Below, piece by piece: positions 19,603-43,654 of a stretch of 44,627 nucleotides of DNA. Position numbers and translations under genes: made by a program. Origin of the DNA: Pseudomonadota bacterium (GTDB taxonomy: Bacteria; Bdellovibrionota_B; Oligoflexia; Oligoflexales; CAIYRB01). The DNA lies in NCBI GenBank assembly GCA_026390435.1, contig JAPLFY010000118.1, positions 1-44,627 on the forward strand. The letters are read 5' to 3'. Positions within the stretch are counted from its first letter, which is position 1, and each line of letters begins with the position of its first letter. The notes under the pieces are model-generated. The model ran no database searches, was not told where the DNA came from, and saw only the letters and a program-made list of their open reading frames with translations.

Positions 19603-20904
19603 ATGACACCCACTAACCAGCCGATTAACTTGCCTGGGCGTATGCTCGATGCGTGGCGGGACGCCGTGTTGGCACTGGCAAAATTTCCCCGTGGGACAAA
19701 GCGCAAAGACACGCCGCCCGAAGCATTGCTCGGCACCGCTCTGCGCCAAGAGACCGGGGCGATCATCGACCTCTGGGAATCCTTCACTAAAGAACGCCAG
19801 CAAGTCAGCCGCGGCATGCTTGGCAGCGCGCAGCAGACAGTGGCCTACTTGCTCGGATTTCATCTCGTCAACGCAGCGAGAGCAAGACTACTACTGAAGC
19901 GCCTTAGCGATCGGCATCACGTGCAAGCTTGGATTAAAGACATTGCGCGCAAACACACTCCGGCGACAGCGGCACCGGTCACTGAAGGCGAGGCCGAGGC
20001 CGAGACCAAAGCTGAAACTAAAAGCGAAGCTAAAAACGAATCTGGAGTGAAACAGCAACCTCTCGTCACTTGGTATGATCTGGGTTGCGGTACTGGTGCA
20101 GTGGCACACGCAGTCAGTGATTTCCTCCTGACGGCCGGCCTGCCACCTTCGGCTTTGCAGATGCGCCTCTACGACACCAGCAGCAGTCTTTTGGAAGCCG
20201 CGAGTTTGGTGCTTAACCAAGCCGCTTGCGGTGCCAGTATCAAAACACACCGCGTTGGTTTGGAGCGTTTAGACTCCAGCATGGTCCCTCTTGCACCTGC
20301 AGGTACGATGCATGGTTTTTCGCTAGGCTATGTCTGGAACGAACTAGAAAAAAATCCCGTGGCCAAGACCCGCGTCCTCAAACTTTTGCGCGATCAGGTT
20401 CAGGGCTCCACCCTAGTGCTGCTGCTTGAACCCGCTTCGCAGACCTTCGCCCGCTCGGCCATGGAGCTACGCGATGAGATGGTAAAGATGGGCTATCTGC
20501 CGCTGTATCCTTGCCTCGCTCCTACGCCATGCCCGATGCTCAACCTCAGCCGTGACTGGTGCTATAGCGAGGCCACCTGGCAGCAACCTAAAATCATGCA
20601 GACCTTGGATAAGTCGCTAGGCATCAGCCGCACGCATTTAAGCGGAACAATGATGGCCTTCGCCAGCAAGGATCTAGCTAAGTCCTGGCGCGCTGAAAAG
20701 ACCGACGCCGTCATCGTCGGCCGCCCTGAACGGATCCAACCGCACCTACTTAAAGTGAAAGACCGGCCGAAAGAAAAACCAGCAACTACTTTCGAATATT
20801 TACTTTGTACTGGCAGCGAGCTGAAGAAATTTTCTCCGACAACGGCAGAGGGCGCTCCGCTGCAACGAGGCCTACCCTTCGTACCCATGGGGTCGGGCAC
20901 TTAA
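19603..20904 (+). CDS. Rsm22-family methyltransferase-like protein (METTL17-like)
   Basis: 433 residues. The SAM-binding motif is 'YDLGCGTGAVAHAVSDFL'. The family-specific Cys motif 'CLAPTPCPM' with 'DWC' follows, and a fourth Cys lies in 'LLCTGSEL' near the C-terminus. In mitochondrial METTL17/Rsm22 such cysteines bind a 4Fe-4S cluster, and the protein assists small-subunit ribosome assembly. A charged Glu/Ala/Lys insert (about residues 126-147) looks like a low-complexity expansion. The last residues (PMGSGT) are encoded by a REP-like 14-mer shared with other sites in the window. The original C-terminus was therefore probably altered by that element. Confidence 0.8.
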   Translation: MTPTNQPINLPGRMLDAWRDAVLALAKFPRGTKRKDTPPEALLGTALRQETGAIIDLWESFTKERQQVSRGMLGSAQQTVAYLLGFHLVNAARARLLLKRLSDRHHVQAWIKDIARKHTPATAAPVTEGEAEAETKAETKSEAKNESGVKQQPLVTWYDLGCGTGAVAHAVSDFLLTAGLPPSALQMRLYDTSSSLLEAASLVLNQAACGASIKTHRVGLERLDSSMVPLAPAGTMHGFSLGYVWNELEKNPVAKTRVLKLLRDQVQGSTLVLLLEPASQTFARSAMELRDEMVKMGYLPLYPCLAPTPCPMLNLSRDWCYSEATWQQPKIMQTLDKSLGISRTHLSGTMMAFASKDLAKSWRAEKTDAVIVGRPERIQPHLLKVKDRPKEKPATTFEYLLCTGSELKKFSPTTAEGAPLQRGLPFVPMGSGT

Positions 20905-33685: not shown

Positions 33686-34843
33686 ATGCAGCTGCAACAA
33701 GGTTTAAAGGCTAGTAAGTACCGTCTTGTGATCACAGGATTTTGCCTGATTGCCAACGTAACATCAGGATGTGGTCCGTCTGCAGCAACAAGCTTAGACC
33801 GTCGATTCTTGGCGGGCAACAGACCAGGGCCTAATACGTCTCAGACCACCCCACAGACCAACGCATCGATTGATGCGATAAACAACTCCAACCTAATGAA
33901 CGCCGCTAGACTTAACAGCTTTCGTCCGGGCGACATATGGCGCGACACCGAGGGACAAGTCATCAACGCGCACGGCGGTGGTTTCTATGTCGAGAACGGG
34001 GTCTACTACTGGTTTGGTGAAATAAAAGGCCAGGACGGACTAGCTCGTGCTGGGATCAGCTTATATTCATCTACGGATCTCTATAATTGGCGTAATGAAG
34101 GACTGGTCCTAGCCGTAGACAAGTCCAATCCAGAGAGTGATATCGCCGAGGGTGCGATCATTGAGCGCCCAAAGGTCATCTTCAATAAGAAGACCAAAAA
34201 GTACGTGATGTGGTTTCACCTGGAACTTAAAGGACAAGGTTACGGCTCAGCTAGAGCTGGCGTAGCGGTTAGCGACACTGTTCGGGGACCGTACCGATTC
34301 TTGACGAGTTTTAAACCCAATAACGAAATGTCCCGCGACCAAACATTATTTGTTGATGACAATGGTAAGGCCTATCAGATCGCAGCGTCTGAAGAAAATC
34401 AGACCATGCACATCAATGAACTGACCGACGATTATCTCAAACCAAATGGTAAATTTGTGCGCACCTTCATCGGCAGGTCGATGGAAGCACCGGCAGTCTT
34501 CAAATACAAAGGTCGCTATCACCTGATTGCATCAGGGTGCACCGGCTGGGATCCGAACAGTGCGCGACAAGCCGTCGCAGACAACATGATGGGCCCCTGG
34601 ACTGAGCTCGACAACCCTGCTCAGGGTCCAGAGTCTGACGTTACGTTTCGCTCACAAAGTACTTACGTGCTCGAGGTCACACCCGGATCGGGCCAGTTTA
34701 TCTATATCGGTGATCGCTGGAATCCGGACAATCTCGCCGACAGCCGCTACATTTGGCTCCCCCTCCAGTACGACAACGGCCGCTTTACCATGAGCTGGAA
34801 AGACGAATGGCAATGGGGTCAGGCACTTCCCGTAACCCCTTGA
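33686..34843 (+). CDS. GH43-family glycoside hydrolase lipoprotein (galactanase-like subgroup)
   Basis: 385 residues with signal and lipobox T-S-G-C29, so an envelope-anchored enzyme. The five-bladed-propeller GH43 pattern is clear: 'IWRDTEGQVINAHGGGFYVE', 'YYWFGE', 'SLYSSTDLYNW', 'IERPKVIFN', 'MSRDQTLFVDDNGKAYQI', 'MEAPAVFKYKGRYHLIASG' and 'DSRYIWLPLQ'. These match the subgroup containing exo-beta-1,3-galactanases more closely than xylosidases or arabinofuranosidases, but the substrate is inferred. The last residues (WGQALPVTP) are encoded by the REP-like 14-mer (34815-34828) and flanking bases, so the natural C-terminus may have been replaced. Confidence 0.82.
   Translation: MQLQQGLKASKYRLVITGFCLIANVTSGCGPSAATSLDRRFLAGNRPGPNTSQTTPQTNASIDAINNSNLMNAARLNSFRPGDIWRDTEGQVINAHGGGFYVENGVYYWFGEIKGQDGLARAGISLYSSTDLYNWRNEGLVLAVDKSNPESDIAEGAIIERPKVIFNKKTKKYVMWFHLELKGQGYGSARAGVAVSDTVRGPYRFLTSFKPNNEMSRDQTLFVDDNGKAYQIAASEENQTMHINELTDDYLKPNGKFVRTFIGRSMEAPAVFKYKGRYHLIASGCTGWDPNSARQAVADNMMGPWTELDNPAQGPESDVTFRSQSTYVLEVTPGSGQFIYIGDRWNPDNLADSRYIWLPLQYDNGRFTMSWKDEWQWGQALPVTP
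34815..34828 (+). repeat. REP-like 14-mer, single copy
   Basis: GGGGTCAGGCACTT, identical to the left arm at 41777-41790 and one base different from 20889-20902. It lies in the last codons of the GH43 gene, 122 bp before the start of the first A/B module. No inverted partner was found downstream. Confidence 0.75.
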
Positions 34844-34950
34844 AGGTACAGTTAAAACAGTAGCCATGCTGGGCGCAGCAGCGAGTTCAGCCGCGCCCCT
34901 CAGGACCGGGACCCTTTCGACCGATAGCGGTGAAGGGAGGGCTACTCATA

Positions 34951-35346
34951 TTGGCAGCCGTGGCGAACCAAAACCGAGTCGAATTGACGCTAGACGGTGA
35001 TATCTTCAACCGCCTGGTAAACATCATCATCGACAATGAAGAGCTAAAGTGGCTTGGGCTTGAGCCGTTTGGACAAATTGGCTCTTTTCGCCACAAAGAT
35101 GTAGCCACACTTCTTGCTTTTTGTATCGATCACCTTGAGTACCATATCGTTACCTACACCTCAGGTGACAGGTATGTTAATCGATATGTTCCCGATGAGT
35201 CGATTTACATGCTCGCTACTGGGGACAAAAACCCCTACATAGTTTTCAATCCATGGATCAGCCCACGTCGTTATTTAATCGAGGAAGAAGTCTTCAGTAA
35301 GCTTGGCTGCGAACCTGACCAGATCAAGAGACGTCACAAGTCCTAG
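34951..35346 (+). CDS. Module protein A, copy 1 (unknown family)
   Basis: 131 residues from a TTG at 34951 that lies 9 nt after GGAGGG. This start makes it line up with the ATG start of its paralogue at 42098. Shared blocks between the copies are 'LxxDGxxF', 'LGLEP', 'YHI(V/I)T(Y/F)', 'DRYVNR(Y/F)V' and the 'L(I/V)xE(E/D)xxSK' tail. Predicted alpha/beta with no signal peptide or membrane helix. No known domain was recognised. Its last 72 bp overlap, in antisense, the end of the B gene at 35275-35622. The conserved convergent arrangement suggests A and B form one functional unit. Confidence 0.75.
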   Translation: MAAVANQNRVELTLDGDIFNRLVNIIIDNEELKWLGLEPFGQIGSFRHKDVATLLAFCIDHLEYHIVTYTSGDRYVNRYVPDESIYMLATGDKNPYIVFNPWISPRRYLIEEEVFSKLGCEPDQIKRRHKS

Positions 35347-35622
35347 ACGCGACATTTCGGCGTCGATAAATTGATTTGTCATCTTCCCCTGATGGAGTTT
35401 TGCATATTCCCGAAATTTCGTGAAATCGGATGTGCCCTCGCCAACGCGTCTAAACTCGCGTACCGTCAATCGCTCAAAAACCACCCATGCATCGAAGTGA
35501 TCGCCTGGACTGAAGACCCGAAGCTGCTGATTAATTAATTCCTGATCGTCAGTAGCAAAGATGTAAATCACCGTACCGCTTCGTGCTACGCCAATTTTCA
35601 TAGTTGGGACTTTCATCTGCAT
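35275..35622 (-). CDS. Module protein B, copy 1 (unknown family)
   Basis: 115 residues from an ATG at 35622 preceded by GAGGAGGAG; an ATG at 35616 is also possible. It is a paralogue of the 115-residue protein at 42419-42766. Shared features are '(I/V)GV(A/T)RSG', an aromatic-Pro then 'DHFDA' followed by 'VFExL', 'RExRR', and a helical C-terminus ending in Phe-x-Asp. It is small and basic-to-neutral, with no signal peptide, membrane helix or known domain. Its stop codon lies opposite a Leu codon of gene A, and its last 24 codons are exactly in register with A codons on the other strand. Confidence 0.75.
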   Translation of the reverse strand: MQMKVPTMKIGVARSGTVIYIFATDDQELINQQLRVFSPGDHFDAWVVFERLTVREFRRVGEGTSDFTKFREYAKLHQGKMTNQFIDAEMSRLGLVTSLDLVRFAAKLTEDFFLD

Positions 35623-35794
35623 GCTCCTCCTCAGTCGCTGATGAAGGTTTTAGCCGCAGATGATTGATGAACCAAGCGACATGAGTCGCAACAATTACTA
35701 TGTCCGGAAGCGACTGCATTAATACAGAAGCAAGTCTCTGTCACCGCCAGGACTTACTTAAGAAGATCTGGAATCATGCCTCGCGGCAGCAACC

Positions 35795-37105
35795 CTACGA
35801 CTGCCGACAAAGGTCAAAATACTCTTCAGCGCCAATATTAGCCTCTTTGCTCGGAAATGCCGTCGACACCGCACCCTCGACTAGACTTGGATCCCGCACC
35901 AATTCACGGCTTGGGCCGTCGGTGTCAAAGAACTGCCCTTCGAGCAAAAATTTTCGAGCGCGGTCATGAAAGTGAGGCAGCCAGTTCATGGGATTACCTG
36001 GATGGTCTTGGCGCGAAAGAAAAGAGTGCGGAGTCCCTCGGTAAAAACAAAGTGAATTTTTAAATTTATTGGGCTCTCTAACTTTGCGAAACGTGTCTTT
36101 TGTGGCGCGGGTATCAGATCCGTCATCAAATTCGACGGCGACGATCTGAATTTGCGTTGGTGAGGACTGGAATGCTTTTGAATCCGACTGCTTTGCTGCT
36201 AAGGCCGTAGCACCTTCACCAAATGTAACTGTGGCTGCAATGTTACGGATATTTGTGTCACAAATACCAGCACGTCCCCCGGTATTGCGCTTATAACACT
36301 CATCACCCCACCGAACTTCCTGTCTATCGCTAGAAATTAAGTCTGCTTTGTTGGCGATGACGATCTTACGAACATCGTTATTTAGCTTGAGCTTTGCATT
36401 CGCATAAAACGCATTCCAACGGGCTTTGCCACTGGAGTCTATAGGTTCAACCGGCCGCCAAAAATTATCGGGAGGAAGGGTCAAAAAGGGAGCTAATATA
36501 AGGGCCCGCTCGTATAAACCCGGCGCAGCAAATACACTGCGGTAAGCTAATGCCCCACCAACAGACAAGCCTCCGACTACTCGCAAGCCGCTCGCTTTCT
36601 GCATGATGGCGTTCATAGCATCGACAAAGGCATCATACTCCTGCGTTCCACCCTTCTCGATATTCGGAATGTACTGATAATAAGACTGCCGCTCCACCAG
36701 AGTATCGCCCTTAAGCTGCGCCGGTCCCCGACCTTGGCCAGGCAGGAGCGGGATCAGCACATTAAAACCGAGAGACGTGAGATAATCGCGCATCTCGAAG
36801 AATTGTTGAGGGCAGGCCGTATAGCCGTGAAAGAATATAGCAGTGCCCACATATGGCACCGCTGGGTTAGCACGGGCAAACACCGGCTTACAATCTTCTT
36901 GGAGCTCGTAAGGATAGTGAAGCTTCAGATCGTCAACAAAGTAGCGGCGCCATGCCGCCTCCACCGGGCTAACATCCTCTTGGCTTTTGGTACTGCTAAT
37001 TGGATCGGTCATCGAGCGCTTACAGCTTGTCGCTGGCAACCATGCAAGCGCTGCAGCTAAAATTGTCAGTGCGCTTGATAATTTTAGATTTTTACCTTCT
37101 TGCAT
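35795..37105 (-). CDS. Alpha/beta hydrolase lipoprotein
   Basis: 436 residues from the ATG at 37105, with a lipobox ending A-T-S-C28. The hydrolase core shows the oxyanion segment 'AIFFHGYTACPQQF', the nucleophile elbow 'GGLS181VGGALAY' and a C-terminal catalytic His in 'GTPHSFLSR'. The acid is probably in the long segment between them. Six extra cysteines beyond the signal suggest disulfides outside the cytoplasm. It resembles serine-aminopeptidase/monoacylglycerol-lipase-like hydrolases, but the substrate is unknown. A TTG one codon upstream is less likely as the start. Confidence 0.8.
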   Translation of the reverse strand: MQEGKNLKLSSALTILAAALAWLPATSCKRSMTDPISSTKSQEDVSPVEAAWRRYFVDDLKLHYPYELQEDCKPVFARANPAVPYVGTAIFFHGYTACPQQFFEMRDYLTSLGFNVLIPLLPGQGRGPAQLKGDTLVERQSYYQYIPNIEKGGTQEYDAFVDAMNAIMQKASGLRVVGGLSVGGALAYRSVFAAPGLYERALILAPFLTLPPDNFWRPVEPIDSSGKARWNAFYANAKLKLNNDVRKIVIANKADLISSDRQEVRWGDECYKRNTGGRAGICDTNIRNIAATVTFGEGATALAAKQSDSKAFQSSPTQIQIVAVEFDDGSDTRATKDTFRKVREPNKFKNSLCFYRGTPHSFLSRQDHPGNPMNWLPHFHDRARKFLLEGQFFDTDGPSRELVRDPSLVEGAVSTAFPSKEANIGAEEYFDLCRQS

Positions 37106-37378
37106 CAAAAGTCCGCCTATTTTTGATTCAATGATACCACCTCAGCACTTTGTTGAGTTAAGCGCGCTGCACCCCATCTTTCGGGCTTCGCATGTGCCGG
37201 TAACTATTGTGTTTTTCTGTTTGCCTATGGCATCGAGTTTTCCGTTACAAAAAACGGTCTCATGAATACCAATAATATTGGATTATTGCCTTTTTTTCTC
37301 AAGTTTTAGGAACTTGTTGACGAACAGCTGAGATGGATAACAGGGGAGATACCCCGTTAACAAATCTTGGGTCTGCTT

Positions 37379-40300
37379 ATGTCGACTTATAAACAACTAG
37401 CCTTGTGCACGATGAGGGCCTCGCTCAGCGCCCGATTATACGTGTTTAGTTTGGCATTTGCGGCGAGCCTGGTCTCCCTGTCGCAAGCGCACGCGGCCCC
37501 TTTTTCGGTGTCATATAGCGGTCGTCTCACGCAGTCCTCGGGTGCCCCAGTCGATGGACCGGTCGATATCTCGGTAAAGTTTTGGAACGCTGCTGTCAGT
37601 GGTAACACTCTCACCGCTCCGGTCGAGTTCACCGCAGTGGACCTTAACAGTGGCGTGTTTAGTCTCCCCCTCGAACTAAGCTCCGAGCAGGTGCAGCAAA
37701 TCTTTGGCGACGTTAGTAGTCCGGTTTATATAGAGATCACCGCAGCTGGTAAAACTTATCCGCGTCAGCAGTATAGTTTCGTGCCGCTGGCACTGCGTAT
37801 TCCTGTCGACGGTAAGGCCCTGGCGTTTGATAGAAACGGCAATCTTGGGCTCTCCCTTAGTAGCCTGCCGGCAGCCAATCAGTTTCTCACTAAAAATAGC
37901 AGTGGCGAGTTGATTTGGGGCACTCCTGCGGTGACTGCGGGAACCAGTGGCACGATGAGTATGCCCAATGTCGGAACGGCGGGGACCTACGTCAAAGTCG
38001 TCACCGATGCTCAGGGACGCGTAACGCAAGGGCTGTCACTTGCGGCTGCGGATGTTACCGCTGCGCTGGGGCAAAGCTTGACCACCGCAGTCGTTGCCGA
38101 AAGCGGTACAAATCTTTATTACTCGGACGCGCGGGCACGAGGTGTGATCTCGGCTAATGCGCCACTAAGTTACGGTATTTCAAGTGGTCAAATCTCCGTG
38201 GCGCAGGCCAGTGGTACCGCGAGTGGTTATTTGAGCTCTGCAGATTGGACGACCTTCAACAGTAAACAAAACGCTCTCGGGTTTACCCCGGTCAACCGGG
38301 CTGGTGATTCGATGGCCGGATCTTTAAATCTGGGCGGCAATGATTTAGCGAACGCAGGCAACATCAGTATGTCAGCGTCGAAGACACTGATGCTGAGTAA
38401 TAACGCCAGTGACCCTTCTGGACTGACGGGAGCTGACAAAGGCAAGACATGGTTTGATACATCGACCAATCAAATTAAGTACTGGGATGGATCGAACGCA
38501 AAAGCCTTAGGTGTTGCAGGCGCTGGGCTCACGAACTTGAACGGACTGACTGGCAACACACAAAACTTCGCCACAGGCACCAGCGGCACCAGTCCAGCGT
38601 TCAGCTCATCGGGAACGGTGCATACGCTGAATATCCCGCTCGCATCTGCTGCCGGGGTTACAGCAGGCGCCATCTCGAATTCAGATTATACAAATTTTAG
38701 CGGCAAGCTAGCCGGTGTATCGGGCGGCACAGGGATTTCAGTCTCTACAGCTAGTGGCACGGCAACCGTCAGCCTCAGCTCTGTCGGCACTGTGGGTACC
38801 TACGTCAAAGTAACCACCAACTCTCAGGGTCAGGTACTTAGCGGTGATTCGCTCACCAGTAGTGACATCCCAAATCTGGACGCCGCGAAGATCACGACCG
38901 GACAGCTTTCCACAGCAATTGGTGGTACGGGAGTGAGTTCGACGGCGACCTTTCCGACATCTGGTGTAGTCGTAACACGGGATGCAAACGAAACGCTGAG
39001 CAATAAAACGATTAATGGAGCTGTAATTAATGGAGCATCCACCATCGGTGGGTCGACGGCGATCAGCACCACTGGCACCGTTAACTCAGGGGCCCAAACA
39101 GTGGCTGGTAACATCACTATTTTGGGTAGCGGCACTACAGGAAATAAACTAGTGCTCAACGACAAAGGCTCGACTAACTCAGTCGCACTGAAAGCTCCTG
39201 ACACTCTGGCGTCGTCACTTACCTGGGAACTACCGAGCACCAACGGCTCATCTGGACAAGTACTCTCCACCAATGGCTCAGGCACATTAAGCTGGGTATC
39301 TGCTGCTGTCGGGAGCGTGACAAACGTAACCGGAACTGCCCCACTATCGGTCGCCACTGGTACCTCAACTCCTGTTATTTCCATGTCGCAAGCTAACGGC
39401 ACTACAGACGGCTACCTAAGCTCGGCTGACTGGACGACCTTCAATAATAAACAAGCAGCCGGTAACTATATCACCGCTGTCACCGGCGATGTCACGGCTA
39501 CGGGACCTGGATCTGCTGCAGCTACACTTGCTACCGTCGCTATCCCAGGGACCTCAACCAAGGTGACTTACGATGTGAAGGGCCGAGTGACTTTGGGTAC
39601 GTCGCTGGCAGCAGCGGATATTCCGCCCCTTAGTGCAGCCATCATCACTTCCGGCACTCTGGCAGCGGCTAACGGTGGTACCGGGGTCAGCTCGACTGCG
39701 ACCTTCCCGGCCTCGGGCGTGGTGGTCACTCGTGACGAGGCGGAAACTCTGACTAACAAGACTTTATCTGCCGCCGTAATTAGCGGCGCTTCAAGTATAA
39801 GTGGCTCCACAGCGATTAATACAACTGGCACCGTTAACTCAGGGGCCCAAACAGTGGCTGGTAACATCACTATTTTGGGTAGCGGCACTACAGGAAATAA
39901 ACTAGTGCTCAACGACAAAGGCTCGACTAACTCAGTCGCACTGAAAGCTCCTGATAATTTGGGGTCGTCTCTTACTTTAGAATTACCGGGCAGCAATGGC
40001 TCATCTGGACAAGTACTCTCCACCAACGGCTCAGGCACATTAAGCTGGTTATCTGCTGCAGTCGGGAGCGTAACAAACGTCACTGGTACAGCCCCAATTT
40101 CGGTCGCCACCGGTACCTCAACGCCTGTCATTTCCATGTCGCAAGCCAACGGCACTACAAACGGCTACCTAGGTTCGGCTGACTGGACCACGTTTAATAG
40201 TAAACAAGCAGCCGGTAACTATATCACCGCCCTCACTGGTGACATTACTCTCTCAGGCTTCGCTAGCGGCTCAGCCGCAGCTACCTTAGCGACTGTCGCT

Positions 40301-41770
40301 ACCGCCGGTACTTCGACTAAAGTGACTTACGATGCGAAGGGACGCGTGACTTCTGGCACATCGTTAACGGCGGCGGATATCCCGGCACATAGCGCAACTC
40401 TTATCAGTTCTGGTACTTTGGCTGTTGCCAATGGTGGTACTGGTGTCTCGTCAACGACCGCAAGTTCTGTGTTCGCTGGCCCGACAAGTGGCTCTGGCGC
40501 GCCTTCGTTCCGCACTCTAGTGGCCGGAGACTATCCATCGATGATCGGAGCCAATGGCAGCACTGCTGGTACGGCTGGCGCCGTGCCTGGACCTCTTGCA
40601 GCGGATAACGTTAAGTTCTTGCGTGGTGATGGAACCTGGGCTGCACCCGCGGCAGCAGCAGCTGGTGCAACTAACCAGATTCAATACAACAGCAGTGGTG
40701 CTCTAACCGGTAATGCTAACTTTGTTTATTCAGGTGGGAACGTCGGAATAGGGACACCTAGTCCTTCCGGTACCCTTGTGGTTGGGGCACAACAAGTTGG
40801 ATCATTAGTTACTCCGTGTCAGACGGTTTGTGGCTCGTATAATCCGGCAGGTCCTAGCGACGGAAATTTTGGATATAAATTCACAGTCAATAAAAACGGC
40901 ATGATATCTAAGCTCTGGCTAAACGTGGCGGATTCGTCGCCGCATCTCGTCAGTCTTTACGACATGAGCGGCACGGTTCTTGCGAGCGCTACTATCACTG
41001 CCGTAACAAATCAATGGACATCTGGAGACATCACACCAGTTAACGTTACTTCCGGAACCTCTTATGTGGTTGCTGTTCGAGTAACTAACTGGCGCGCTAT
41101 CTCAGCAGCACAGCCTGTAACTACCGGCGATATCACTATCAACGAAGCTAGGTATATTAACAATGCTGGAACTTTTCCAACTAATGCCACTACAAATTGG
41201 GTATACGGCATTCCAGACATCACATTTCAAACAACTGACACAGTACCCGCATTGCTTGTAACTTCCTCTGGCAACGTCGGCATCGGGACCACGTCCCCGA
41301 ATGGCATCCTCCATATTGCCGGAACCACTACCATTCACGGCGCTGGCGAAGCCGCTACTCCGAGTCCAGCGACGATCCGCGGCGCCAACGCCAGCGGCAC
41401 CAACATCTCAGGTGCCGCATTGACCGTCCAAGCCAGCAACGGTACGGGTACGGGCGGTTCGGGTGCGATCAATTTCAAAACAGCGCCAGTCGCTGCGACG
41501 GGAACCACGGCCAATACGCTGGCGACTGCGATGACCATCACTGCAAGCGGCAACGTTGGGATCGGCTCAACAGCCCCAACTCAAGCGCTTGATGTAAATG
41601 GCACTATTCGTGCCGCCCACGTTAGTCTCACAGGCTCGAGCTGCAGTTGGTCGGGATGGGGATGCAACATGACTTGCGCAGCCGGTTATTACTTAGCAGG
41701 AGTAAATATGGGTATGTCGGGCAATTGTAGTACAGGTCCGAACGTGATGGTATATTGCTGCTCCTTCTGA
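37379..41770 (+). CDS. Large repetitive phage-fibre-like surface protein
   Basis: 1463 residues. A signal peptide ends at 'SQAHA', and an N-terminal domain ('FSVSYSGRLTQSSGAPVDGP') is typical of secreted repeat proteins. The body (about 160-1110) consists of fibre-like repeats such as 'GYLSSADWTTFN(S/N)KQ', 'GTSTKVTYDxKGRVTxGTSL' and 'ANGGTGVSSTATFP', familiar from phage tail fibres and bacterial surface proteins. A roughly 150-residue insert near 1140-1290 resembles a DUF4082-type domain. 'GNVGIG(T/S)TxP' repeats follow. The C-terminus is a short Cys-rich segment (seven Cys) instead of the S74 chaperone domain such proteins often carry. The start is uncertain (37367 TTG, 37379 or 37415 ATG). 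Likely an adhesin. Confidence 0.85.
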   Translation: MSTYKQLALCTMRASLSARLYVFSLAFAASLVSLSQAHAAPFSVSYSGRLTQSSGAPVDGPVDISVKFWNAAVSGNTLTAPVEFTAVDLNSGVFSLPLELSSEQVQQIFGDVSSPVYIEITAAGKTYPRQQYSFVPLALRIPVDGKALAFDRNGNLGLSLSSLPAANQFLTKNSSGELIWGTPAVTAGTSGTMSMPNVGTAGTYVKVVTDAQGRVTQGLSLAAADVTAALGQSLTTAVVAESGTNLYYSDARARGVISANAPLSYGISSGQISVAQASGTASGYLSSADWTTFNSKQNALGFTPVNRAGDSMAGSLNLGGNDLANAGNISMSASKTLMLSNNASDPSGLTGADKGKTWFDTSTNQIKYWDGSNAKALGVAGAGLTNLNGLTGNTQNFATGTSGTSPAFSSSGTVHTLNIPLASAAGVTAGAISNSDYTNFSGKLAGVSGGTGISVSTASGTATVSLSSVGTVGTYVKVTTNSQGQVLSGDSLTSSDIPNLDAAKITTGQLSTAIGGTGVSSTATFPTSGVVVTRDANETLSNKTINGAVINGASTIGGSTAISTTGTVNSGAQTVAGNITILGSGTTGNKLVLNDKGSTNSVALKAPDTLASSLTWELPSTNGSSGQVLSTNGSGTLSWVSAAVGSVTNVTGTAPLSVATGTSTPVISMSQANGTTDGYLSSADWTTFNNKQAAGNYITAVTGDVTATGPGSAAATLATVAIPGTSTKVTYDVKGRVTLGTSLAAADIPPLSAAIITSGTLAAANGGTGVSSTATFPASGVVVTRDEAETLTNKTLSAAVISGASSISGSTAINTTGTVNSGAQTVAGNITILGSGTTGNKLVLNDKGSTNSVALKAPDNLGSSLTLELPGSNGSSGQVLSTNGSGTLSWLSAAVGSVTNVTGTAPISVATGTSTPVISMSQANGTTNGYLGSADWTTFNSKQAAGNYITALTGDITLSGFASGSAAATLATVATAGTSTKVTYDAKGRVTSGTSLTAADIPAHSATLISSGTLAVANGGTGVSSTTASSVFAGPTSGSGAPSFRTLVAGDYPSMIGANGSTAGTAGAVPGPLAADNVKFLRGDGTWAAPAAAAAGATNQIQYNSSGALTGNANFVYSGGNVGIGTPSPSGTLVVGAQQVGSLVTPCQTVCGSYNPAGPSDGNFGYKFTVNKNGMISKLWLNVADSSPHLVSLYDMSGTVLASATITAVTNQWTSGDITPVNVTSGTSYVVAVRVTNWRAISAAQPVTTGDITINEARYINNAGTFPTNATTNWVYGIPDITFQTTDTVPALLVTSSGNVGIGTTSPNGILHIAGTTTIHGAGEAATPSPATIRGANASGTNISGAALTVQASNGTGTGGSGAINFKTAPVAATGTTANTLATAMTITASGNVGIGSTAPTQALDVNGTIRAAHVSLTGSSCSWSGWGCNMTCAAGYYLAGVNMGMSGNCSTGPNVMVYCCSF
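39071..39201 (+). repeat. 131-bp perfect direct repeat, copy 1
   Basis: Identical base for base to 39824-39954, 753 bp downstream (251 codons, in frame). It lies inside a longer imperfect repeat of the fibre gene. Perfect identity amid diverged flanks points to recent gene conversion or duplication. Confidence 0.9.
39824..39954 (+). repeat. 131-bp perfect direct repeat, copy 2
   Basis: Second copy of the repeat at 39071-39201 in the fibre-like gene. Recombination between the two copies would delete or add exactly 251 residues in frame. Confidence 0.9.
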
Positions 41771-41776
41771 CTTCTT

Positions 41777-41880
41777 GGGGTCAGGCACTTCTTGCAACTC
41801 ATTGACACTATTAGAACACCACAAAATATGACTACAAAATAACTCGGGCTTTCAGTAGCTTAGCGCCAGTGCCCGACCCC
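41777..41880. repeat. REP-like inverted pair upstream of the second A/B module
   Basis: GGGGTCAGGCACTT (41777-41790) faces CAGTGCCCGACCCC (41867-41880), its inverted copy with two mismatches to the exact complement (one to the 20889 version), with 76 bp between. It starts 7 bp after the fibre gene ends and lies about 220 bp before gene A copy 2. The rest of 41771-42097 shows no gene. Confidence 0.8.
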
Positions 41881-42097
41881 CTAGCTCAGCATTGAATTTT
41901 CTGCGACCGAATCAACTCGCGGAATGACTGGCAACGACATGGACATCGCCTGCCAGCTACGCTCTCCTACGCCAGAATCTCGAACACATAAATATCCAAG
42001 GTCCAATCGTAACCAGTATCGGCCTTTGGCTAAAGAATACTTGAGATTCCACCGAAAGATATCCGTCAGTCTGTGCTCTATCCTATGAGGAATCAAC

Positions 42098-42496
42098 ATG
42101 GGAGCCACCGCCAAGCCATCACCCGAGCTATACACTGACGGTGTCGCGTTCGCCGAGCGGACCGGGGAACTCAATGATTGGCATGAACTGCTTTGCCTGG
42201 GCCTTGAGCCGGACACCGTCGCCGGTGGTTTCTGTAACGAGAAAGCAGACATTCTTTTGGACTATGTCGAACGCGACCCCGCCTATCATATCATCACGTT
42301 TCTTGAGGATAGATATGTGAATCGGTTCGTGGCAGGGCCAATGACTCTATATTTTCTTGCGGATGGCGACGCCAATCCAAACCTGGTCTGCTATCCGTTT
42401 CTCGCTCTTGATTGGCATCTAGTCTTTGAAGATACGATCAGCAAGACCTTTGCCATGCTCAAGGACATCAAAAATCGTCGCGAGACCAAGGGCTAA
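42098..42496 (+). CDS. Module protein A, copy 2 (unknown family)
   Basis: 132 residues from an ATG with GAGGAA 5 nt upstream. It is a paralogue of the 131-residue protein at 34951-35346. Both have 'DG' near residue 15, 'LGLEP', 'YHI(I/V)T', 'DRYVNR', an aromatic/Leu-rich segment with a 'GD(A/K)NP' turn, and an acidic '(F/E)E(D/E)' tail. The two copies are clearly diverged, so the duplication or parallel gain is not recent. The last 78 bp are antisense to the end of gene B at 42419-42766. No domain was recognised; cytoplasmic. Confidence 0.78.
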   Translation: MGATAKPSPELYTDGVAFAERTGELNDWHELLCLGLEPDTVAGGFCNEKADILLDYVERDPAYHIITFLEDRYVNRFVAGPMTLYFLADGDANPNLVCYPFLALDWHLVFEDTISKTFAMLKDIKNRRETKG

Positions 42497-42766
42497 GCGC
42501 TCGGCATGACGCCAAACTTTAGCGAGCTTTGAGTAGTGACTGGTGCTCATGTGCTGATACATGCGCCTTGCGCGGGCGGCGGCTGGACGGCGTCTCAGTT
42601 CCCTTGAGAGTAAATATTCGAACACAGCATAGGCGTCAAAGTGATCAGCCGGAGTGTACAACGCACACGCCGGTGGTAATTCCTGTTTCGGCTCATCGCT
42701 TAAGATCGGTACCTGTATTGCGTTGCCGCTGCGCGTGACTCCGACATGCTGCACCGCTGCTGTCAT
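42419..42766 (-). CDS. Module protein B, copy 2 (unknown family)
   Basis: 115 residues, the same length as copy 1. The ATG at 42766 has AGGAGG 5 nt upstream. Conserved with copy 1 are 'VGVTRSG', 'YTPADHFDAYAVFEYLL', 'RELRR' and the C-terminal 'LGLATIFDV...FKD' region. Copy 2 is richer in Arg/Ala in the middle. Its stop (TAG) lies opposite the Leu of A's 'HLVFED', which aligns with the Leu of 'YLIEEE' opposite the copy 1 stop. The role of the pair is unknown; a toxin-antitoxin, effector-immunity or sensor pair are untested possibilities. Confidence 0.78.
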   Translation of the reverse strand: MTAAVQHVGVTRSGNAIQVPILSDEPKQELPPACALYTPADHFDAYAVFEYLLSRELRRRPAAARARRMYQHMSTSHYSKLAKVWRHAERLALGLATIFDVLEHGKGLADRIFKD

Positions 42767-42845
42767 GAAATCCTCCTGTGGTCATCGCAGTGTCATTTAG
42801 CAATCGTGTGCCATGGCGTCCAACGACATGTACCTGATTTTGAGG

Positions 42846-42986
42846 CATGTCAGGAGAGGGACTACTTCGCCGTCCTACACCCTGCATGTCACTGGATCTG
42901 TTGCCGGAAATGGTGCCTACATCGCCCTTTCGGATATCAGGTTTAAAAAAGATATCCAAGACCTAGTAGGTAGTCTCGCCCCTTGA
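42846..42986 (+). pseudogene. Relic of an S74-type intramolecular chaperone end of a fibre protein
   Basis: In one frame the sequence reads 'GTTSPSYTLHVTG', then 'SVAGNGAYIALSDIRFKKDI' and 'QDLVGSLA', ending at TGA (42984-42986). 'NVGIGTTSP..LxVTG' followed by 'SDIRxKKDI' is the hallmark junction between fibre repeats and the peptidase S74 autoprocessing chaperone domain. The upstream bases are mutated (Gly-Ile replaced by Arg-Arg), no start exists, and the S74 domain stops after about 15 residues. It is therefore a fragment of a fibre gene, perhaps the former 3' end or a paralogue of the gene at 37379-41770. Confidence 0.75.
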
Positions 42987-43155
42987 CGTCAGGCGACTTT
43001 GGTAAAAGACTCAGGACCGTGGCCCAACGCCAACTTGGAAGTCGCCGGGTATATCCGCACTTAATGCGCCATTCGCTTGCAACCAACGTGCTAAATCGCG
43101 GCGCTAGCCTAATTATGATCAAGGACCAACTGGGTCATGCGCTTAAGCGGCCTAT
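42983..43155 (+). pseudogene. Fragment of a tyrosine recombinase (integrase C-terminal part)
   Basis: The frame contains 'RVYPHLMRHSLATNVLNRGA' and 'MIKDQLGHALKRP', matching the HxxR and LGH motifs of XerD/phage-integrase catalytic domains. The N-terminal half and first catalytic Arg are missing upstream. After 'LGH' the similarity stops before the catalytic Tyr. It abuts the S74 relic within a few bases, so the two fragments were joined by rearrangement. The frame continues to 43372 without further resemblance and overlaps the SUI1 gene, so that tail is not a gene. Confidence 0.78.
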
Positions 43156-43163
43156 ATGTCGCA

Positions 43164-43197
43164 TCACCCAACGCGACATTGATATCGCGTTGGGTGA
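43164..43197. repeat. Perfect 13-bp inverted repeat next to the integrase relic
   Basis: TCACCCAACGCGA (43164-43176) and its complement (43185-43197) flank an 8-nt loop (CATTGATA). No T-run follows on either strand, so it is not a standard terminator. It lies just where the integrase similarity ends. It could be a recombination-site remnant or a structured 3' end. Confidence 0.7.
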
Positions 43198-43324
43198 GAT
43201 GTCGATTGTATGCAAATATGATTCTTCAAAAGGTGGGGTAAAAAGTGAGGTTTTGTACGTCCATTGGGACTTATATCCCCGCCACGAGGGGCAGGGTTTT
43301 ACGGCAACAACGACAGAAAGCGCC

Positions 43325-43654
43325 TTAACCGCCCGCCCGTACCAACTTCATCCCAAGGCGCTCGAAATGTGACGCAACGCGGTCGCGCATATCGCCGCGA
43401 AGCTCAATCGTACCATTTTTAAATGTTGCGCCGCAGCCGAGGCTGGTCTGCATCTGCTTCATGACGGACACAGCTTCCGCCTCGTTGGGAAAAGTCAGAT
43501 TGAACAAGACGGTCACCGCTTTACCGCCGCGACCTTTGGTCTCTAGGCGCATTTTGCAGGGACCGGCACTGGGCTTATACGATGTGGACCCTTCAGGGGC
43601 GTCACGCCGGTTGGAGCCCGTTGCTGTCGAGTAAACAGGTTTTTCTTTAGACAT
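43325..43654 (-). CDS. yciH: SUI1/eIF1-domain translation factor (YciH-like)
   Basis: 109 residues with the SUI1 fold: 'RLETKGRGGKAVTVL', 'LGCGATFKNGTIELRGDMRD' and the terminal 'GMKLVRAGG' match bacterial YciH. The N-terminal 35 residues are a loosely structured leader. YciH is linked to translation-initiation fidelity and stress repression. The ATG at 43654 has AAGG upstream. The next gene on this strand starts 34 bp away, so they may be co-transcribed. Confidence 0.92.
   Translation of the reverse strand: MSKEKPVYSTATGSNRRDAPEGSTSYKPSAGPCKMRLETKGRGGKAVTVLFNLTFPNEAEAVSVMKQMQTSLGCGATFKNGTIELRGDMRDRVASHFERLGMKLVRAGG

Follow-up and report, generated by a model that had tools for sequence, protein, structure and literature searches.

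The 44,627-nucleotide stretch of DNA analysed here (the window) carries at two sites a pair of convergent, overlapping genes, termed A and B. The two families to which they belong have no recognised relative; they fill dozens of loci in one genome, are maintained by selection and are turned over as a block between sister species. Simple pairwise counts (NG86, rather than a codon model on a tree) gave dN/dS values of 0.16 for A and 0.28 for B, and both are thus real, constrained genes under purifying selection. The recurrence of the pair is far above chance, on the basis of the copy numbers, of 77 intact pairs and of this selection. The two products may act as antagonists, a tentative reading which is set out below together with its rivals.

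At the first site, gene A lies on the forward strand at 34951..35346 (131 aa, with a TTG start at 34951 preceded by the ribosome site AGGGAGG) and gene B on the reverse strand at 35275..35622 (115 aa), both with inferred start codons; the convergent coding sequences share the 72 nt of 35275..35346. At the second site, A (132 aa) occupies 42098..42496 of the forward strand and B (115 aa) 42419..42766 of the reverse strand, with an overlap of 78 nt. A sequence-only reading of the window had described the first pair with its overlapping 3' ends, had pointed to the homologous second pair and had quoted motifs common to them. All of these are present in the window, whereas its count of two copies was too low, there being more than 40 in the host genome. 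Between the two window copies, identity amounts to only about 36% for A and 29-30% for B, and both are more closely related to copies elsewhere than to each other. The unit of the second copy is a block of about 1 kb (41890..42890), with 76-87% nucleotide identity to many other copies. No Rfam family was found within 34800-43000. A C-terminal remnant of a tyrosine recombinase (42983-43372; Phage_integrase, E 6e-7) adjoins the second copy, and positions 37367-41770 encode a 1467-aa repetitive, surface/fibre-like protein with an NVGIGTTSP motif and no Pfam match. Fragments of the NVGIGTT repeat family adjoin several other modules.

That neither protein belongs to a described family, as the sequence-only reading had proposed, is borne out in the libraries searched, a marginal PADLOC match aside. 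Pfam gave no match for A or B, NCBIfam and PHROGs none for A, and PADLOC none for B; of 39 A proteins, one had a marginal PADLOC match. PDB sequences and PDB folds, the latter compared with both predicted models, yielded no usable match for either protein. Neither A nor B resembles a toxin or antitoxin by sequence or fold in these libraries, and neither matched any family or fold of nucleases or recombinases. In the model of A, residues 10-103 form an alpha/beta core predicted with confidence, whereas the C-terminal tail, largely encoded by the overlap with B, is of low confidence; the model of B comprises a predicted beta-hairpin and five helices. Among viral folds, the A model is weakly similar to three uncharacterised phage proteins, A0A6J5QV45, A0A6J5NGI5 and A0A6J5NYJ0 (E 0.04-0.1, 9-16% identity; best E 0.04, probability 0.97), a predicted likeness that may be taken as a lead only. 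Two other ideas were discarded: A and B are not mutual homologues, as the two proteins are unrelated to each other, and A is not the small HUH transposase that its "YHIV" string had brought to mind, since inspection of the sequence revealed no HxH motif. An effector-immunity role in the secreted sense, one of those suggested earlier, gained no support, as a search limited to Pfam domains revealed neither a secretion nor a trafficking domain in either protein.

The association of the two genes is strict in one direction. Among the loci examined, 77 intact convergent pairs overlap by 66-93 nt. In more distant families the convergence is kept, but with an overlap of only 6-33 nt and a shorter A of about 100 aa; in the host genus, A has most probably become extended at its 3' end into B, giving the long overlap. 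The system would then record a convergent coding overlap growing from 6 to 93 nt. B is confined to 8 genomes, every one of them also A-positive; ten of the 43 genomes of the order carry A, and the distribution of the 8 B-positive ones among these has a hypergeometric p of ~3e-7, six of the eight being members of one genus. The protein distances of A and B, taken outside the overlap, are correlated (r = 0.80, 0/2000 permutations). Homologues of B were found in A-positive genomes only, and in convergent order in other families too. The earlier view that the pair, and not either gene, is the heritable unit holds in so far as B occurs only with A, the distances are correlated and gain and loss proceed by block. 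The unit is not strictly indivisible, however, as 22-29 copies in which B is truncated or lost keep an intact, constrained A.

This decay is asymmetric. With contig ends excluded, an intact A accompanies a B fragment in 22 copies and stands alone in 7, while an intact B accompanies a broken A in 1 copy and stands alone in 3; four loci listed as having a full B and an A fragment (L081, L082, L084 and L103) are in fact complete short-A pairs of other families. B is missing from about a quarter of the copies. A without B is still constrained (dN/dS 0.146 versus 0.172), which indicates that A works, or is useful, without an adjoining B. Such a pattern would fit a costly B and a protective A, although loss of B and retention of A are equally expected if A is simply a useful gene.

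The host is a member of the Oligoflexales, with a genome of 4,275,293 bases in 153 contigs. It contains 44 matches to A with a single-sequence query and 48 with a profile, and 37 and 44 matches to B, respectively. Five genus-mates have 8, 16, 20, 31 and 4 A matches (overall range about 3-31), and outside the genus a profile search found A in four other genomes of the order only (G010, G014, G038 and G041), these few other families having no more than a handful of hits. B was found in 8 of 383 genomes examined, the other 375 being without a match, and a narrow B alignment searched against genome contigs matched only MAGs related to the Oligoflexales; the named records with B matches are lake and aquatic MAGs, one of them labelled Oligoflexales. 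A was not found in phage records, nor B in plasmids or viral contigs. Some of the copies in the host are scattered and others lie in tandem arrays (contigs C139, C6 and C63), and one contig of another genome (G004) bears 13 copies. At one locus (L009, 4338-5366 and 5981-7008) a segment of ~1.64 kb is duplicated, an A without B lying in one place and a complete pair in the other, which shows that arrays grow by tandem duplication. All the genomes are draft MAGs in which many contigs stop near these repeats, so that the copy counts and the classes of genes standing alone are approximate.

Comparison with a sister species (G002) provided two clean empty sites for the pair, one of them that of the first window copy. 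Here, a 910-bp segment (34870..35779; BLAST edges at 34885 and 35774) is absent from the corresponding locus (L199, G002 contig 49), the flanks of which are 93-94% identical, and CATGC is present at both edges of the unit and once in the empty site. At the other site (L025 versus L184 of G002), an 855-bp segment with the pair is absent between flanks 90-92% identical, and the edge repeat is AAG. The two units carry A and B only, without a transposase gene inside, and their direct repeats (5 and 3 bp) and ends differ, with no common terminal sequence; a classical transposon with fixed ends is unsupported by these edges. Of the further sites compared, one shows replacement instead of a clean insertion (L018), two have the pair in both species (L015 and L021), one has it in both with the G002 pair damaged (L017), and one bears different pairs in the two species beside MITE-like repeats (L016). 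The nearest relatives of the first window copy in two other genomes (G001 and G003) occupy a locus common to those two and not that of the window. The unit clearly behaves as one mobile or labile block, each site representing either an insertion in one species or a deletion in the other. The empty site of the first copy (L199, 1426-1443) and a break at another locus (L023, 2530-2551) both coincide with a palindrome, GCCGCGCGGC, suggesting a possible preference for terminator-like hairpins.

The modules are closely associated with MITE-like repeats. MITE-like ends (GGGGTCAGGCA) number 1.20 per kb within 400 bp of modules versus 0.03-0.07 elsewhere, being 17 to 40 times denser, and the orientations of these ends speak neither clearly for nor clearly against a MITE-bounded composite. 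A repeat of this type, of 116 bp (GGGGTCAGGCACT...AGTGCCCGACCCC; 41771..41886), adjoins the second copy, and the same repeat (GGGGTCAGGCACT...AGTGCC(T/C)GACCCC) occurs in partial form at 20889, 20976 and 34815.

Upstream of A, the predominant element is a predicted FliA (sigma28)-type promoter, recognised by its match to a consensus. In Bdellovibrio, this promoter class, with the consensus TTAAG-N16-CCGATA, defines the attack-phase programme (Karunker et al., PMC3627812). By comparison with that consensus, the putative promoter of the first window copy is TCAGG-N16-CCGATA (34900..34926, forward strand), and that of the second TAAAG-N16-CCGAAA (42031..42057, forward strand). The motif T(A/C/T)A(A/G)G-N14-18-CCGA precedes A in 68 of 111 copies, with 1.3 expected from shuffles, which understate the dependence among these mutually related upstream sequences; the spacer is exactly 16 bp in 61 of the 68, and the motif precedes B in 0 of 87 copies. 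Both the promoters and the ribosome sites of A are conserved across copies. The host genome encodes FliA (285 bits, cut-off 189.6) and contains 109 sites of the form TMAAG-N14-18-CCGATA, versus 22 for the reversed control. The flagellin genes of the host, taken as a positive control, lack the exact motif in their promoters, and the assignment of the A promoter to FliA is consequently by consensus and not by a local positive control. Several other FliA-type sites precede lipoprotein-like genes; at seven loci (L136, L137, L140, L142, L146, L157 and L164) the sequence is TAAAG-N14-18-CCGATA, which suggests that FliA, as in Bdellovibrio, governs a broad set of cell-surface genes.

The upstream region of B is of a different type. 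Of 87 copies, 65 have ATGTC there (12 expected), in most cases preceded by GACAT at a distance of 16-17 bp, and the strict form GACAT-N16/17-ATGTC has nine sites in the host genome, seven of which are at modules. In the window, the element is GACAT-N17-ATGTCGCTTG for the first copy (35673..35704, reverse strand) and GACAT-N17-ATGTCGTTGG for the second (42820..42851, reverse strand). Its role may be that of an operator or a promoter, or it may belong to the end of the unit.

The reading tentatively preferred for these features, from the sequence evidence, is that A and B form an antagonistic pair, A acting against B. The unit of ~0.86-0.91 kb would comprise a FliA-type promoter, gene A, the overlapping gene B on the opposite strand and the promoter region of B. 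B, expressed from its own promoter with the GACAT-N16/17-ATGTC element, would have an activity costly to the cell. In a motile or attack-like phase, A would be transcribed by RNA polymerase carrying FliA and would counteract B as a protein, while its transcript, running antisense over the 3' end of B, would cause the two genes to be expressed alternately. Once B is broken, A would be kept as a stand-alone neutraliser of B from other copies, which would explain the many intact A genes without B. The phase-specific role thus proposed for A would fit its predicted promoter. Against the antagonistic pair stand, besides the lack of any likeness to toxins or antitoxins in the libraries searched and the alternative account of the loss of B given above, two further points: a neutraliser would normally have to be made continuously, whereas A is under a phase-specific promoter, and type II toxin-antitoxin genes are not usually arranged convergently.

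A close rival is a phase-linked regulator or adaptor pair, A being a protein of the FliA regulon and B its partner in the other phase, with the growth in copy number serving diversification of dosage or specificity. Though doubtful in its own right, it accounts for the promoter and for the constrained evolution of A roughly as well as antagonism does: most A copies bear the FliA-type promoter, the same motif stands before many lipoprotein-like genes, the promoter class is that of the Bdellovibrio attack-phase programme (PMC3627812), and A is constrained even without B. It explains block turnover less well, as gain and loss in unit-sized steps, tandem arrays and dispersal beside unrelated genes resemble a dispersing element, and B has been lost from roughly one copy in four. 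In a further reading, A, B or both would be mobility proteins of a tiny new transposable element with ends ~50-150 bp outside the genes. The presence or absence of whole units with short edge repeats (CATGC in the window, AAG at L025), the conserved GACAT-N-ATGTC element near the B-side end and the site with different units in two species beside MITE-like repeats all accord with this. It is nonetheless unlikely, since the edge repeats are of unequal length (3 and 5 bp) and might reflect microhomology, the two clean cases have no terminal sequence in common, neither protein matches a nuclease or recombinase family or fold, A continues to duplicate without B, and it is difficult to see why a transposase should have a FliA promoter.

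A system for phage defence or superinfection exclusion that has diversified into numerous copies is quite improbable and, like a mobility role, less likely than the first two readings. The neighbours of the modules do include HipA, AbiEii, Fic and DUF4143 proteins, and the weak fold similarity of the A model (best E 0.04) is to phage proteins. Housekeeping neighbours are just as frequent, however, PADLOC offers nothing for B and a single marginal hit for A, A is absent from phage records and B from viral contigs and plasmids, and the promoter of A is phase-specific. It would be very surprising if the pair were a hitch-hiking repeat family with no present function, as the strong association with MITE-like repeats and the many broken copies might suggest. 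The dN/dS values well below 1 for both genes largely exclude a functionless repeat, and the conserved promoters and ribosome sites of A, as well as the fact that other families of the order have kept the pair, also speak against it.

Taken further, the preferred antagonistic reading leads to a rather doubtful but more specific proposal, namely a dispersing two-gene element of a new type, its persistence tied to the phase programme of its host, in which the life-cycle switch would pick the antagonist that is made. FliA would then drive one gene, and a second promoter the opposing, overlapping gene. The predicted phase-specific promoter on most A copies would tie a dispersing element to a life-cycle switch in a Bdellovibrio-related lineage, and whether an attack/growth switch controls an antagonistic gene pair thereby becomes a testable question.

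Several known systems invite comparison. Type II toxin-antitoxin systems are resembled in the two small genes without recognised secretion domains, the strict co-occurrence, the many copies, the presence or absence between close relatives, the asymmetric loss of one partner and the paired, palindrome-like element near one promoter, that of B. In contrast to them, A and B are convergent with separate promoters rather than in one operon (77/77 pairs and the distant families), and neither matches any toxin or antitoxin in sequence or fold. The three phage proteins (A0A6J5QV45, A0A6J5NGI5 and A0A6J5NYJ0) are similar in length to the A core, with which they share a weak fold similarity at 9-16% identity. 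The FliA attack-phase regulon of Bdellovibrio bacteriovorus (PMC3627812) is approached in that the putative A promoters match TTAAG-N16-CCGATA, with the 16-bp spacer in 61 of 68, and the host has FliA and other such sites before lipoprotein-like genes. It differs in that homologues of A and B were found in Oligoflexales genomes only, that attack-phase expression is here a prediction and that the host flagellin genes lack the exact motif. Finally, like MITEs, integron gene cassettes and TIME-like elements, the A/B unit is small, moves or is lost as a block, has no transposase, and lies between genes and in tandem arrays; unlike them, its two clean cases share neither common ends nor a constant target-site duplication, and it bears two constrained protein genes.
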